Shown here: positions 34,910 through 41,758 of the stretch, piece by piece
Layout: each line of letters starts with the position of its first letter
Numbering within the stretch: position 1 is the first letter of the stretch
Assembly (NCBI GenBank): GCA_017469625.1
Contig: JAFUGA010000018.1
Coordinates: forward strand, 124,001-188,000
Direction of reading: 5' to 3'
Origin: Bacteroidales bacterium
GTDB taxonomy: Bacteria > Bacteroidota > Bacteroidia > Bacteroidales > P3
Length of the DNA: 64,000 bases
Notes under the pieces: model-generated
Databases searched by the model: none
What the model was told of the DNA's origin: nothing
Seen by the model: the letters and a program-made list of their open reading frames with translations, nothing else
Translations under genes and position numbers: made by a program

Positions 34910-35635
34910 TTAAACTATTATTCTTTTTAAATCAGAAATATCCGATATTATCTCATCTGCAAAAGGTGTGTTTGTAGGATTACCCATCCAACTCTTACCT
35001 TTCAACCATATGGTGGAACAACCCAACTGTTTGGCTGGAACAATATCTTTTTTATATGAGTCCCCTATCATTATAGTATCTATAGGACTTACGTTTATCT
35101 TATCTAAAGCGTATTGTAACAGTCTTTTGTCCGGTTTAGATATACCTACAATAGCACTTTCCACTACTATATCAAAATATTCTCTTATTTCAAAATCTCT
35201 AAGCACTTCTTCCAAATTGCCATAAAAGTTTGAAACCAAAGCCATTTTATATCCGAGAGAAAAATCCTTTAGCATAGGTTTCACATTCATAACATTCTGT
35301 TTAGCGAACAAATAACAACTTTCTGCTATTTCTTCTACATGACGCATAGAACTTAGTATTATACCCTGAGTTTCAAGATAATCGTATTGCAAACCAACTT
35401 TTATAAGCAAAGTATCTTTAAAATCATGCATAGATTCTACACTATGAGAAGCAGAAAGCGTCCTTTCTCCATACACATAAGCATCTCTCATCTGTTGTTC
35501 TGAAAGAAATGAGTTGTGTTTTTTATGCTCTTGTGCAAAGATATGATACCAATGCACACCATTAGTATCCAAAGTTGCACCATAATCAAAAACTAAAGCC
35601 TTGTCTTTATTTGTCTGTATTTCCATAATTTCCAA
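34910..35635 (-). CDS. HAD-superfamily hydrolase in inositol-lipid operon
   Basis: A 241-residue HAD protein. Motif I reads FDYGATLD, so the residue two after the nucleophile Asp is Gly, not the Asp usual in phosphatases. Motif II is LVSNFYGN, motif III has Lys in GISKPDKRLL, and motif IV is IMIGDSYKKDI. In this operon it could dephosphorylate an inositol-phosphate or phosphatidylinositol-phosphate intermediate, but the missing general acid makes that an open question. The N-terminus overlaps the preceding gene by 29 bp; ATG at 35626 is an alternative start. Confidence 0.8.
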   Translation of the reverse strand: MEIMEIQTNKDKALVFDYGATLDTNGVHWYHIFAQEHKKHNSFLSEQQMRDAYVYGERTLSASHSVESMHDFKDTLLIKVGLQYDYLETQGIILSSMRHVEEIAESCYLFAKQNVMNVKPMLKDFSLGYKMALVSNFYGNLEEVLRDFEIREYFDIVVESAIVGISKPDKRLLQYALDKINVSPIDTIMIGDSYKKDIVPAKQLGCSTIWLKGKSWMGNPTNTPFADEIISDISDLKRIIV

Positions 35636-36647
35636 AACGTTTTACTTTTATCATACCCATACCTATTATTATCCAAGCAAGTTCGCTTATTCTTGTAATC
35701 ATTCCTACAAAAACTCCCAATTTGCTATTGAACCCTATACAAGCCAAAGCAGCAGAAAGACTACCCTCTCTTATTCCTACCTGCATAGGAAAGATAAATA
35801 TAAGGTTTGCTATAAGAGAAGTTATTGTGCTAATGATTATAGACTCTACCATACCTATACAGAATACACCATTCACAGCCCACATTATTATCATAATCTC
35901 TGTAACGGACATTATTCTGCTAAGTGTTTCATAGAACAAAGAACGAGAAAAAGATGCTCTATGCTCGTTAAACAGTTCTTTGAATTGAGAGTCTATCTCT
36001 ATAATGGTATTATTAAATTCTTCTGTTAGTTTTTTCTTTACAAAGGTTTTTATTATAGGTATTTTTTTCAAAATATTGAAAAACCCTACTACTATTCCGT
36101 TTTTGTAGGCTCTTATCATAAAGATGATAGCAACAACACATATTACTATAAATATACAACCAAAAACAAGTATGCTTCTTCTGAAAGATGTGAGTTCTAA
36201 ACCTGAATACATGAAAAAGAAAAACAAGCAAACAAATCCTATAATCCAAAATACAAAATGAGATAATATGTGCATCATAGCATAAGTAAGTACAGAAGAA
36301 GTTGCTCTTTTGGTGCCAATATCTTTTTTCATGGCTACTATTCTATAAGGTTCGCCACCTAAAGCCATAACAGGTGTAATGTAGTTGATAGCATAACCAC
36401 TTATAGTCAGTCTAAACATTCTTAGCCACGAAACTTTTTTCTCTTGTTTGTTGTAAAAAGTTAGTTCTCTCCAAGAACAAGTATTCAAAGGGTACATCAG
36501 CAACCTTGTTGCTATTATAGGAATAATCCACCACCCTACTTTCTTAATATAAAACAAAAGTTCGCTCCACCCTAAGTTGTTTATCATCACAACTATTAGG
36601 ATAATACCTATAAAAAATAATAATATGTTTATATGTTTCTTTTTCAA
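35607..36647 (-). CDS. Lysylphosphatidylglycerol synthase TM-like (UPF0104) membrane protein
   Basis: A 346-residue integral membrane protein with about eight hydrophobic helices. The conserved family segment is YAINYITPVMALGGEPYRIVAMKKD, with RATSSVLTYAMMHILSHFVFW after it. This is the flippase-like domain found in MprF and AglD, here without a synthase domain. In operon context it may flip or modify an inositol-containing lipid. It sits 6 bp downstream of the CDP-alcohol phosphotransferase gene and overlaps the HAD gene. Confidence 0.82.
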   Translation of the reverse strand: MKKKHINILLFFIGIILIVVMINNLGWSELLFYIKKVGWWIIPIIATRLLMYPLNTCSWRELTFYNKQEKKVSWLRMFRLTISGYAINYITPVMALGGEPYRIVAMKKDIGTKRATSSVLTYAMMHILSHFVFWIIGFVCLFFFFMYSGLELTSFRRSILVFGCIFIVICVVAIIFMIRAYKNGIVVGFFNILKKIPIIKTFVKKKLTEEFNNTIIEIDSQFKELFNEHRASFSRSLFYETLSRIMSVTEIMIIMWAVNGVFCIGMVESIIISTITSLIANLIFIFPMQVGIREGSLSAALACIGFNSKLGVFVGMITRISELAWIIIGMGMIKVKRFGNYGNTDK

Positions 36648-37638: not shown

Positions 37639-39183
37639 TTAATTTATACCTGCTTTGTCTAAAAATCTTTTTGTAATCTCTTTGGCCGCCTGCTCTCTAC
37701 AAGATGAAAATGATGGAAAATCATTCATATCTATTATGAAGAAACAACCGTTTTTATCTATGATAGCATCTCCTCCATATATATCTAAATCCAACACTTT
37801 CGCTGCTTTCTGTACCTCTTTTGTAAATCTATCTTTGTCAAATGATATACGAGAATTACCAAAATTTATTTTATTATGAAATTTATCTTCACTTGGATAA
37901 TAAGAATAAAACCATTCGCTACCATTTACACCATAAAATTTTATAACATCGCCTTCTATATGTTTAGAAAGAACAGCCTTTTCTATACCTCTTTGTTTAT
38001 AGTTTTCCAACACTTTTTCTGCAGTAACAAAATCTTTTACCCTAACTACATCTATTTCTTCTACAGTTTGAAAATCTGCTCTTTTTATCCAAAAATCTCC
38101 TTCTTGTAACCAATATATATCTTTTAGATTGTAGTCTTTTGTATCTACCACAGTACTTTTTGCAATGGATATATTGTTTTCTTCAAGTTTCTTTGTCTGA
38201 ATAAGTCTATAACAATTTTTACAAGCAGTAGAAGAATTCACAACTATACTTCCCTGTTTTTCTCTTTCAGATAGATAATCTACAACCTTAGGATTTCTTG
38301 CCATAGATATAATATAAGGGTATGTTTTCATAGAAAAATCTATCTCACTTTCGTTTTGTTTATCCACATCATAACCCTGCAAACGTAAATTCTCTATAAC
38401 AGAGTTTAATATCTTATCATCTTTATCTTCAGAGTTAGGAGAATATTCTGAAAAACGACCTAAAGCAAGTATAGGCTTTTTCTGTAAATCCAAAAGTCGT
38501 TCTGCCTTTTTTATATCTTCTACATGGTCTATATCTATTACTTTTCCAAAAGAAAAACTACAAACATTCAATTTCTCTGAAACCAACATTCTTTGATAGT
38601 TTCTCATTCTGGAAACGTTGTTATTTATAGCAGTATCTACCACTTGAAGAGCCTTTTCTCGCAAACAATATATACCAGCAGATACACTGTTTATTTTTTC
38701 AGAGGTTCTTTCGTCTAAAAATGCAGTAATCTTATTATCATCGTTTATTTCTATAAACAGAGGTTTTTCATCATCAATAAATTTTGTTGTAGCCATTAAA
38801 GCATCTACTTGTTTATTGGTTTGGAAAGAGGAGATATATTTTTTGAAATCTTTTTCACTGAAAATAGTATCTACTGTCGTAAGGCAACATTCTGAAAAAG
38901 AAGAGTGATGAATGATATTCCAAAAACTATGCAAAGAAGACGGTGTACTTTTTACTATAAGGTTTATTTTAACGTTCCAATCTCTCTTATCCAAAAACTC
39001 CTTTAACTCTTCACTCTCTTCATTTATAATAATAGAAATCTGTTCTGCATCATTATCTTTAAATATTCTTATAAGTCTTTCTATCAAATATTCATTATGC
39101 AACCTAACTAAAGGTTTCTCACTTTTAAAACCTTCTTTTCTCAAACGAGAACCCTCACCTGCTGCTATTATTGCGTAATTCAT
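37639..39183 (-). CDS. Nucleotidyltransferase/ATP-grasp fusion protein in inositol-lipid operon
   Basis: A 514-residue soluble two-domain protein. Residues 1 to about 230 are an NTP transferase: YAIIAAGEGSRLRKEG (loop 7-14), then KPLV, a catalytic-region LTTVDTIF, and SVSAGIYCLRE. The rest looks like an ATP-grasp enzyme. IVVNSSTACKNCYRLIQTKKL and ISIAKSTVV resemble its pre-ATP and hinge region, and FFIIDMNDFPSFSSCREQA (481-499) is the metal-binding DxNxFP end motif, similar to ITPK/RimK-like enzymes. Inference: the first domain may make CDP-inositol; the second may phosphorylate or ligate an inositol-linked substrate. The substrates are unproven. Confidence 0.75.
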   Translation of the reverse strand: MNYAIIAAGEGSRLRKEGFKSEKPLVRLHNEYLIERLIRIFKDNDAEQISIIINEESEELKEFLDKRDWNVKINLIVKSTPSSLHSFWNIIHHSSFSECCLTTVDTIFSEKDFKKYISSFQTNKQVDALMATTKFIDDEKPLFIEINDDNKITAFLDERTSEKINSVSAGIYCLREKALQVVDTAINNNVSRMRNYQRMLVSEKLNVCSFSFGKVIDIDHVEDIKKAERLLDLQKKPILALGRFSEYSPNSEDKDDKILNSVIENLRLQGYDVDKQNESEIDFSMKTYPYIISMARNPKVVDYLSEREKQGSIVVNSSTACKNCYRLIQTKKLEENNISIAKSTVVDTKDYNLKDIYWLQEGDFWIKRADFQTVEEIDVVRVKDFVTAEKVLENYKQRGIEKAVLSKHIEGDVIKFYGVNGSEWFYSYYPSEDKFHNKINFGNSRISFDKDRFTKEVQKAAKVLDLDIYGGDAIIDKNGCFFIIDMNDFPSFSSCREQAAKEITKRFLDKAGIN

Positions 39184-39196
39184 TTTTTCTTCTCCC

Positions 39197-41758
39197 TTAG
39201 AAAGTAAATCTTAGTCTAAATCTTATACCCCATTTTGCTATACCAGGGTGTTCCAAATAAGTAAAACGTCTAACATAATCCACTCTAAGCACTTTAAACA
39301 AATTATCTATTCCCACGTTTGCTTCTAAATATGGAGTATTATCTAAATAGTAAGTCTTGTACTCACCGTTATTGTCTTTAGAAAAGTCTATAAGTTCTGG
39401 GTTATTTGCAGAAGGACGATTGTCTTTAGTAATTCCTCCCCATATAGCCTTAACAGCAAATACTTCTCTAAGTTTCAAATGTTTTACAAGTGGAATTCTG
39501 TTGAAGATATAACCGTTGAAATTATAGTTAAACACCATCTGTCCATAGTAATCACTGACAAATTCAAAGTAATTCATAAGGTTGAAAGATTCATCTTGAT
39601 ATGCCCAATTCTGGTTGGCTTGATGAACGAACAACAACGGATAAGCAGCCTTTCCAAACACTTTTCCACCCTCTAAAGTAAGGTCTGCAAAACCAAAATT
39701 CAAAATAAACCAACGTTTGTTTATGCTTGCTTTCAGTTTATGGAAAGTGTAACTTGCGTCAAGTATATCTGCTGCGTATGAATAATTGATAGTGTATATA
39801 GGAGCAGTGGAATTGGTAGTCATACGGTATTTTTGAGATTGTATAAACTGTTCATTTTTTGCGTATCTCAATTCTAAATTGAATGTAGTCGTCTTTATGG
39901 GGTTGTAAGTCTTTGTTCCATCATAAGAAGTAAATGTTAGCATAGCCAAAGGTTCCATTTCAAAATATTCTACTCTGAATTTGGTAGAAAATTGCTTCAT
40001 AGTTTCATACCAATATTCTGCATACAACTTTGTATTCAAAGTCATCATATCTATATTTCCTCTATTGAATGAAAGGAAAAGTCTATCGTATGTTCCCATT
40101 AGAAGTCTTTGACCCGGTATTTCTGTGTTGTGTTCTATACCTACAGTAAGTAAGTTTATTGGAAACTCCCATTGGTGATACAGTTTATCGGCAAAACTGT
40201 ACATTACCTCTGCATTGTATTTTACTTCTTTGTCTTTAGTTCCATAAGCCACAAATCCGTTTAAGAACCAATGTTTATTGAAATTTACATTAGTTTTTCC
40301 ACCCACACGAAAACGAACACCCTCAACAGAGTTCCAACTTAGAGTATTTTCTACAGGACCATAATCAAACCAACCCAAATCTACATAACCTGAAACAAAG
40401 GCCATAAGTGTGTTCATAATGATTTTGTAACCTGTAAAGTTGTTCAATTTTGAAGGTATATCGTATGTATTTTGTTCATTTGTAGTTAGAGGACTTATTC
40501 TATTTTCTTCCCACCAAGAATTTGTCCTTTTATTGTAACCATCTACCCTTGTAGTTACATCGTTATTTGTATAGAATTTATCGCCAAGATTTTTTCCAAA
40601 AACATAGTCTGAATAGAAGATTTGTTTCTTTCCATACATATTCATACCATAAAAAGAACCGTCAAGCAATGTTTTATCCTCAACCAAACAAAGTTGTCCG
40701 TCTATTCTCTCATATTCTTGCCAAACAGAAAGATTTTTTACGAAATTTATACTTGATTTTTTTGGAAAGTCCAGGAATATTTTCTTTACAGCATAGTTAG
40801 AATCCTTTGTTATCCAAAGTTTTCCACTGAAACCTATATCTCGCATATTTGCAGGATTAAAAGCCAATACTATGCAACTATCACCTTTCAGTTCTGTAGT
40901 ATCTGTAATAAAAAACTGATAAAAACGTGTTCCGTATGAAGCCAAAGGAGATACTATATCATTACTCAACAAACGTATATAATTATCATAAACATTTATC
41001 TTGCCAAAAGCATCTGTGAGCATAAACTCCACTGTCTGAGGTTCAATAAACTTACTCAATGCAAGAGTTTTTTGTCCCATCAACATACTTTTTTGACATT
41101 CTGGCTTCTTTCTATATTGCTTTTCAAACAATTGTTCCATGAAATAAACAGGCATATATTTCCTTTCATCAAATTCTGAAGTTTGCAGATTATCAAAAAG
41201 AAAGCCCATTTTTTTGAATGCTATGTTGTTTCTCAAAGAATCATTTATACCAAGCAAGGAAAGTTCTGTTTTTTCGTGAGAACGATATTGATAAAAAGAT
41301 TGATTAGTTATGTTGTTCTGGTCTTTATGTGCTTGCACATTTTCCATAAGTATGACAGCAGGATTGTTTTTTCTGGAATATTTTTCTCTTTTCGCCACAA
41401 CTTTTGCTTCTGATAACTGTGTAGAAACAGGTTTCATATCTATGTTTAAGCGTTGTGTTTGATGAGGTTTTATTTTCTGTTTTACAGTTTCATAACCTAT
41501 GAATTGGAATATAACAGAATCAAAATTTTGTGCTACCTTTAATGTATATACTCCTTCTACATTGGTCATCGTACCTTGAGCAGAAGAAGATTTAGAATTG
41601 GTTGAGATATTCACAAACGGCAATGGTTCACCTGTTTTAGCGTCTTTTATTATTCCTGTAATGACTGTATTTTGTCCAATAAGATTAAAACTCAGACAAA
41701 TACAAACACAAAAAAACAGAACAATATATTTTATTTTACAAAATATCATTTCTTTCAT
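39197..41758 (-). CDS. DUF5686-type outer membrane protein with carboxypeptidase-regulatory-like domain
   Basis: An 853-residue exported protein with signal peptide (IVLFFCVCICLSFNLIGQ). A CarboxypepD_reg-like domain (about 31-115: TGIIKDAKTGEPLPFVNIST...GVYTLKVAQ...FIGYETVKQKI) is followed by the DUF5686 block starting near QLSEAKVVAKREKYSRKNNPAVILMENV. The C-terminal half has alternating aromatic strands and ends in RLRFTF, a barrel-type C-terminus. It is the first gene of the inositol-lipid operon, 13 bp upstream of the fusion gene. A role in placing lipids or glycans at the outer membrane is only inferred. Confidence 0.82.
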   Translation of the reverse strand: MKEMIFCKIKYIVLFFCVCICLSFNLIGQNTVITGIIKDAKTGEPLPFVNISTNSKSSSAQGTMTNVEGVYTLKVAQNFDSVIFQFIGYETVKQKIKPHQTQRLNIDMKPVSTQLSEAKVVAKREKYSRKNNPAVILMENVQAHKDQNNITNQSFYQYRSHEKTELSLLGINDSLRNNIAFKKMGFLFDNLQTSEFDERKYMPVYFMEQLFEKQYRKKPECQKSMLMGQKTLALSKFIEPQTVEFMLTDAFGKINVYDNYIRLLSNDIVSPLASYGTRFYQFFITDTTELKGDSCIVLAFNPANMRDIGFSGKLWITKDSNYAVKKIFLDFPKKSSINFVKNLSVWQEYERIDGQLCLVEDKTLLDGSFYGMNMYGKKQIFYSDYVFGKNLGDKFYTNNDVTTRVDGYNKRTNSWWEENRISPLTTNEQNTYDIPSKLNNFTGYKIIMNTLMAFVSGYVDLGWFDYGPVENTLSWNSVEGVRFRVGGKTNVNFNKHWFLNGFVAYGTKDKEVKYNAEVMYSFADKLYHQWEFPINLLTVGIEHNTEIPGQRLLMGTYDRLFLSFNRGNIDMMTLNTKLYAEYWYETMKQFSTKFRVEYFEMEPLAMLTFTSYDGTKTYNPIKTTTFNLELRYAKNEQFIQSQKYRMTTNSTAPIYTINYSYAADILDASYTFHKLKASINKRWFILNFGFADLTLEGGKVFGKAAYPLLFVHQANQNWAYQDESFNLMNYFEFVSDYYGQMVFNYNFNGYIFNRIPLVKHLKLREVFAVKAIWGGITKDNRPSANNPELIDFSKDNNGEYKTYYLDNTPYLEANVGIDNLFKVLRVDYVRRFTYLEHPGIAKWGIRFRLRFTF

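Follow-up and report, generated by a model that had tools for sequence, protein, structure and literature searches.

A putative ATP-grasp enzyme as the constant partner of the nucleotidyltransferase in a predicted CDP-inositol lipid pathway of Bacteroidota

Results and discussion

Within the window, by which we mean the whole 64,000-nucleotide stretch of DNA that was analysed, one open reading frame joins an intact NTP transferase to a complete ATP-grasp domain, far above what chance would give. The ATP-grasp unit appears to accompany the NTP transferase constantly, either fused to it or encoded next to it, and from these genomic patterns we take it to be a core and overlooked part of the CDP-inositol route, located in a gene cluster that is already known. 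We read the fusion protein as a bifunctional enzyme, and put the probability that it belongs to the CDP-inositol branch of Bacteroidota inositol-lipid synthesis at roughly 85%.

The fusion is the second gene of a six-gene run on the minus strand, which begins with a DUF5686 gene and continues through the CDP-alcohol phosphotransferase, LPG-synthase-TM and HAD genes to ino1, with intergenic gaps of 66 bases or less (Table 1). The DUF5686 gene adjoins the cluster in other loci too. Judging from the residues described below, both halves of the fusion seem to be catalytically intact.

Table 1. Coordinates of the fused gene, its parts and its neighbours in the window
Feature	Position	Strand	Basis or remark
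NTP transferase–ATP-grasp fusion	39183..37639	minus	514 aa, ATG start
NTP transferase half, residues 1-231	38491..39183	minus	PF00483, NF041135, 4jd0 fold match
ATP-grasp half, residues 235-514 + stop	37639..38481	minus	PDB profile search, fold, 70-row conservation
Metal-site motif IIDMNDFPSF, residues 483-492	37708..37737	minus	read from sequence
CDP-alcohol phosphotransferase, 319 aa	36654..37613	minus	PF01066 2e-13; PDB 4o6m 8e-13
LPG_synthase_TM membrane protein, 346 aa, flippase-like by family	35607..36647	minus	PF03706 3e-25
HAD-IA hydrolase, 241 aa, motif I DYGATLD	34910..35635	minus	PF13419 8e-16
ino1, inositol-3-phosphate synthase, 385 aa	33686..34843	minus	TIGR03450 3e-108, under family cut-off
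DUF5686 outer-membrane-type protein, BT_1527-like	39197..41758	minus	PF18939 2e-44

Relation to the published inositol-lipid cluster

Heaver et al. (2022) found the BT genes missing from B. vulgatus and P. veroralis, although both species make phosphoinositol dihydroceramide, and proposed an alternative route consisting of an NTP transferase, a CDP-alcohol phosphotransferase and a HAD protein (BVU_RS13095, RS13105 and RS13115; PMC9246714). In the window the same three genes lie near MIPS, the combination by which that cluster is recognized, and the LPG-synthase-TM and BT_1527-like neighbours are likewise common to both. The window also shares its gene order with P. nigrescens (NZ_CP082843). 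Both in this genome and in that of P. distasonis (NZ_OY725779), the NTP transferase and the phosphotransferase directly flank the ATP-grasp gene, which is annotated as 'hypothetical protein', while the NTP transferase is called 'NDP-sugar synthase'. The term 'ATP-grasp' is absent from the main text of Heaver et al. (PMC9246714), and no such enzyme figures in their model, whereas in our data it is found as regularly as the NTP transferase. The numbering of tags BVU_RS13095 and RS13105 alone leaves room for a gene between them. A literature search, in which subscription journals were thinly covered, found no paper on the cluster's ATP-grasp gene.

The nucleotidyltransferase half

The first 230 residues had been read in the original prediction as a sugar/inositol-phosphate-type NTP transferase, and profile and fold comparisons agree with this. 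A Pfam scan of the window protein matched PF00483 over residues 5-182 (7e-10), and the model for inositol-1-P cytidylyltransferase/DIPP synthase, NF041135, matched at 7e-13 with 48 bits against a cut-off of 580. The modelled structure of residues 1-237 aligned with T. maritima inositol-1-P cytidylyltransferase (4jd0; Z 22.5, 3.1 Å over 227 residues), and the model also matched A. fulgidus IPCT-DIPPS (4mnd; Z 22.8, 2.5 Å over 209 residues). R13, K23 and D105 are kept in at least 93% of 67 aligned rows, and D219 is conserved; the first three correspond to the active-site residues R16, K26 and D112 of 4jd0 (PMC12275187), matched by spacing and signature and not by superposed atoms. Because several sugar nucleotidyltransferases score equally, the fold leaves both the base and the sugar free, and rmlA_long slightly outscores the inositol enzyme model on this half. 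We infer that the N-terminal half is an NTP transferase of the cytidylyltransferase type, with a predicted CDP-inositol-forming activity.

The archaeal and Thermotoga IPCT-DIPPS proteins (4jd0, 4mnd, NF041135) have in common with it the NTP-transferase fold, the R..K..D pattern and the pairing with a CDP-alcohol phosphotransferase. They are without an ATP-grasp domain, whereas the NTP transferase half in the window is fused to one and those of its relatives are paired with one. The known archaeal CDP-inositol route works without an ATP-grasp kinase, a point against the kinase reading set out below.

Fold and conserved site of the ATP-grasp half

The remaining 280 residues, which had been proposed to form an ATP-grasp domain, had no Pfam match, and single-protein Pfam and phmmer searches gave no confident identity for them. 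TIGR00768 (rimK_fam) matched residues 263-509 at 1e-5, with 25-27 bits against a curated cut-off of 143.4. A profile built from 35 homologues and searched against PDB found E. histolytica ITPK as its best match (1z2n, 5.7e-9, summed from weak stretches), with PsnB (7drm, 2.5e-7), plant ITPK4 (7pup, 9e-6) and RimK (5e-5 and weaker) behind it. As full-length fold matches were dominated by the first domain, residues 235-514 were folded alone with AlphaFold2 (4 aligned sequences, pLDDT 80.6, pTM 0.80). The resulting model has an ATP-grasp fold, matching LysX (3vpd) with Z 21.8 and 3.0 Å over 246 residues, and LysX, ArgX and RimK were the closest among the matches listed (Z 21-22, ~3 Å, ~250 residues). 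Foldseek gave 4e-14 for ArgX and 7e-12 for StITPK1, and D-Ala ligases were also among the nearest folds. ITPK entries were absent among the best 50 fold matches listed, an absence that excludes nothing. The profile search and the modelled structure together indicate that the second half has the ATP-grasp fold.

Conservation was assessed over 70 homologous ATP-grasp rows, some of which come from overlapping loci. The expected metal ligands are kept (D472 in 69 rows, D485 in all 70, N487 in 69), which agrees with the earlier reading of IIDMNDFPSF as an ATP-grasp metal motif, and the phosphate-binding lysines K367 and K415 are present in every row, as are P490 and S491 of the motif. R243, D255, E278, M294, D378, G411, Y417 and G470 are also invariant, and S248, P249, N250, R326 and D488 join D472 and N487 as nearly invariant positions. 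An N-domain motif, R-x4-SPN-x4-D, is found in the loop behind the first strand. The polar N-domain residues R243, S248, N250, D255 and E278 suggest a pocket for a polar small molecule.

Co-occurrence and fusion across the order

The survey covered 393 genomes of the order, with the NTP transferase counted at strong matches; the counts ignore kinship, and few candidates were scored per genome. The NTP transferase was found in 51 genomes and the ATP-grasp protein in 52, with 50 carrying both. This leaves one genome with an NTP transferase and no ATP-grasp gene and two with the reverse. The lone NTP transferase (G039) results from an in-frame deletion that extends from the end of the NTP transferase gene into the phosphotransferase and has removed the ATP-grasp gene. 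Of the two lone ATP-grasp genes, one (G137) is cut by a contig end, while the other (G139) occurs in a genome with the BT route.

At the G039 locus, L051, an open reading frame on the plus strand (620-1897) runs from the NTP transferase straight into the middle of the phosphotransferase, whose catalytic motif is gone; this is either real decay or an assembly error. We considered L051 as an NTP transferase–phosphotransferase route without ATP-grasp and rejected it, since the deletion also took the phosphotransferase motif.

In most genomes the NTP transferase and ATP-grasp genes are separate neighbours on the same strand, many of them within ~60 bases of each other or overlapping. True fusions were seen in the window, in L001, L002, L007 (where the phosphotransferase forms a third domain, giving a triple fusion) and L018, and in L023, L024 and L031, which belong to one family. 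Fusion is the rarer state and accounts for four changes on the maximum-likelihood tree, at least three of which are forced by well-supported branches. The original prediction had made the fusion its main point. The fusion is real, but the emphasis shifts, as most relatives have adjacent separate genes and the cluster was already partly described. That most relatives are unfused might be taken to mean that neighbouring genes were joined by chance and that the fusion is functionally meaningless; given the constant adjacency and near-perfect co-occurrence of the two genes, we find this hardly credible.

Three loci (L050 4716-6307, L053 4379-6008 and L055 5025-6653) have a second, divergent phosphotransferase and NTP transferase pair directly upstream of the main cluster. 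These extra pairs are without an ATP-grasp or HAD gene of their own.

Association with ino1 and separation from the BT route

The Ino1 protein of the window belongs to the mycothiol/actinobacterial type (TIGR03450), and a protein search recovered it only in the window and in G183 among the 393 genomes. As this query was too narrow, being of a different subtype, ino1 was counted with the Pfam family PF01658. The window protein differs in subtype from the Ino1 of the clusters of the Heaver type. In the other clusters the subtype is a longer one, and Ino1 appears to have been replaced inside a conserved operon.

The ino1 family was present in 62 of the 393 genomes, including 47 of the 52 with the ATP-grasp gene and often in the same gene run, so the proposed link to ino1 held beyond the window. 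The question of whether the fusion always accompanies ino1 received a narrower answer: five of six sampled fused genomes have ino1, that is, not all. Fifteen genomes have ino1 and no ATP-grasp gene, and 14 of these match NF052609 (BT_1522-type PhinosDhcerSyn), five of them over the curated cut-off. Because these 14 carry the phosphoinositol dihydroceramide synthase of the BT route, the ATP-grasp gene can be regarded as a marker of the CDP-inositol route, and the two routes were almost mutually exclusive in this sample. The BT_1522/1523/1525 phosphatidylinositol-phosphate route of B. thetaiotaomicron likewise starts with Ino1 and ends in phosphoinositol dihydroceramide; it differs in having neither an NTP transferase nor an ATP-grasp enzyme.

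No ino1 was detectable in five of the 52 ATP-grasp genomes, among which G289 and G352 are 99% complete. These five would need inositol or inositol phosphate from outside. At least four of their clusters retain the HAD gene, which is a poor fit to a HAD protein that acts only on the product of Ino1. Loci L084, L085 and L086, where ino1 was undetected, retain the NTP transferase, ATP-grasp, phosphotransferase and HAD genes. The five genomes, like the slightly higher rmlA_long score, could be explained if the NTP transferase activated another sugar or polyol phosphate and the proximity of ino1 were incidental. We consider this very improbable in view of the 47 genomes that do have ino1 and of the phosphoinositol dihydroceramide made by B. 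vulgatus and P. veroralis.

Two genomes show altered metal ligands. In G139 the ATP-grasp gene directly adjoins the BT genes, which comprise NF052609 over its cut-off, a BT_1523-like PIP synthase, a GtrA-type protein and ino1, and its product has the change D472E, the sole case in the 70 rows. In G377 there are only weak HAD matches and no NTP transferase gene beside the ATP-grasp gene, with a divergent NTP transferase gene elsewhere; here the change is N487D, again the sole case. These substitutions fit a role linked to the NTP transferase and HAD, with the count at two related genomes. Locus L044, which has no NTP transferase gene, was considered as an ATP-grasp enzyme acting alone and rejected, since it is a cluster of the BT route whose ATP-grasp protein is altered.

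Kinase or ligase

The partner of the NTP transferase had been expected to be either a kinase or a ligase, and both resemblances were found. The rimK_fam model weakly matched 34 of the 35 members (best 1e-11), and the ITPK Pfam model PF05770 matched four (best 6.4e-6), the window protein not being among them. Neither curated family seems to claim the cluster's ATP-grasp protein. With ITPK (1z2n, 7pup, PF05770) it shares the ATP-grasp fold and the D...D-x-N-x-h-P-S-F/Y metal motif, the site here being D-x-N-D-F/W-P-S-F as compared with DLNYLPSF in ITPK4 and DVNVFPSY in E. histolytica ITPK. At the position of the invariant Lys415, ITPK also has Lys, whereas RimK and PsnB have Arg. The resemblance to ITPK is otherwise weak in sequence, and the R-x4-SPN-x4-D motif is particular to the cluster's domain. 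The RimK, LysX and ArgX ligases are nearest in overall fold and give a weak profile match along most of the length; most of the clusters, however, are without an evident amine substrate. The R-S-N segment is a hallmark of the RimK family. The RimK segment FRSN..GG (R-S-N-x3-G-G) is absent here, with KFG.E..NG in its place. The metal-site details and the best PDB profile match thus lean towards ITPK and the overall fold towards the ligases.

Eight loci from other classes of the phylum (L072, L073, L074, L075, L078, L079, L080 and L081) add two genes, one for a class-III aminotransferase and one for an oxidoreductase that most resembles inositol 2-dehydrogenase (IolG-like). Most of them also have MlaE/ABC/MlaD-type transport genes, and four loci have two tandem ATP-grasp genes. 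The family-library scan covered L078 among these. Their gene content suggests amino-inositol lipids and the transport of them.

The ligase resemblance admits a reading in which the ATP-grasp enzyme forms amide bonds in the manner of RimK or LysX. It would attach an amino acid or some other carboxylate to an amine derived from inositol or from lipid, or else to a carrier, and the head group or its donor would thereby be decorated. The fold matches and the nearly universal weak rimK_fam match speak for it, as do the aminotransferase and IolG-like genes of the eight loci, which could make amino-inositol. We nevertheless regard it as rather unlikely, since the rimK_fam score is far under the cut-off, the R-S-N segment is missing, most clusters have no amine-supplying gene and the reported lipid head is plain inositol-phosphate. 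The last point also bears on the suggestion that the fusion could make a modified inositol head group: the species credited with the cluster are reported to yield ordinary phosphoinositol dihydroceramide, so a modification is not required to account for it.

A kinase chemistry of the ATP-grasp half on inositol or inositol phosphate is our tentative prediction, held at somewhat below even odds. We prefer it to a ligase chiefly on the grounds that phosphate chemistry is required by the pathway and that ITPK1 is reported to take inositol 3-phosphate, the product of Ino1 (PMC8024741). Enzymes of the ITPK type have been described from eukaryotes and archaea (PMC8024741).

Unusual residues in the phosphotransferase and HAD proteins

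The phosphotransferase family motif D1xxD2GxxAR..GxxxD3xxxD4 reads DSADGQLAR..GRILD in the window, with D4 replaced by Gly118. D1, D2 and D3 are kept in all 50 rows; the position of D4, a catalytic base or metal ligand, holds Gly in 49 and Ser in one, with D or N one residue later. The divergent phosphotransferase paralogues of L050, L053 and L055 retain the D4 Asp. Replacement of D4 by Asn nearly abolishes the activity of PIP synthase (PMC4634129), and about 15% activity is left in human CEPT1 D158A (PMC10156783). His155 is invariant in the 50 rows and might serve as the base instead of D4. In the HAD proteins, motif I is D-x-G and not D-x-D in 37 of 38 sequences, so that the usual phosphatase acid/base Asp is missing. 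Together, these two departures weaken a plain Kennedy-type model and also the role that it gives the HAD protein, that of an AUR1-like transferase.

If the pathway does depart from a Kennedy-like model, the ATP-grasp protein could act away from the head group: its target could be the lipid acceptor or a side product, or it could bind nucleotide as a regulatory subunit of the NTP transferase. This seems unlikely to us: the near-invariant metal ligands and phosphate-binding lysines favour catalysis, and the conserved polar residues of the N-domain suggest a small-molecule pocket.

Proposed pathway and implications

For the preferred reading as a kinase, we propose the following scheme. Ino1 would form inositol 3-phosphate, and the ITPK-like ATP-grasp kinase would phosphorylate inositol or inositol 3-phosphate at the ring position used for lipid linkage. 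The HAD protein would take off the 3-phosphate, before or after the ATP-grasp step. The NTP transferase half would then produce CDP-inositol, from which the CDP-alcohol phosphotransferase would hand phosphoinositol to diacylglycerol or dihydroceramide. As kinase and phosphatase would together shift the phosphate, the linkage would be the same as in the BT/mycobacterial route. A bolder version holds that an undescribed bacterial ATP-grasp inositol(-phosphate) kinase and the HAD protein relocate the phosphate group of inositol 3-phosphate ahead of the activation step, and that the distant clusters with two ATP-grasp copies and aminotransferase and IolG-like genes make amino-inositol lipids; in this full form we think it doubtful.

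The CDP-inositol route in gut Bacteroidota is a prediction, and its published scheme is without an ATP-using enzyme. Since the ATP-grasp protein is as constant as the nucleotidyltransferase, that scheme is probably short of one step, and we predict that the NTP transferase, phosphotransferase and HAD proteins alone would not reconstitute the route. Should the protein prove to be a kinase, Bacteria would have an ATP-grasp inositol kinase. Gut-type bacteria on the CDP-inositol route appear almost always to carry an ATP-grasp enzyme beside, or fused to, their nucleotidyltransferase.
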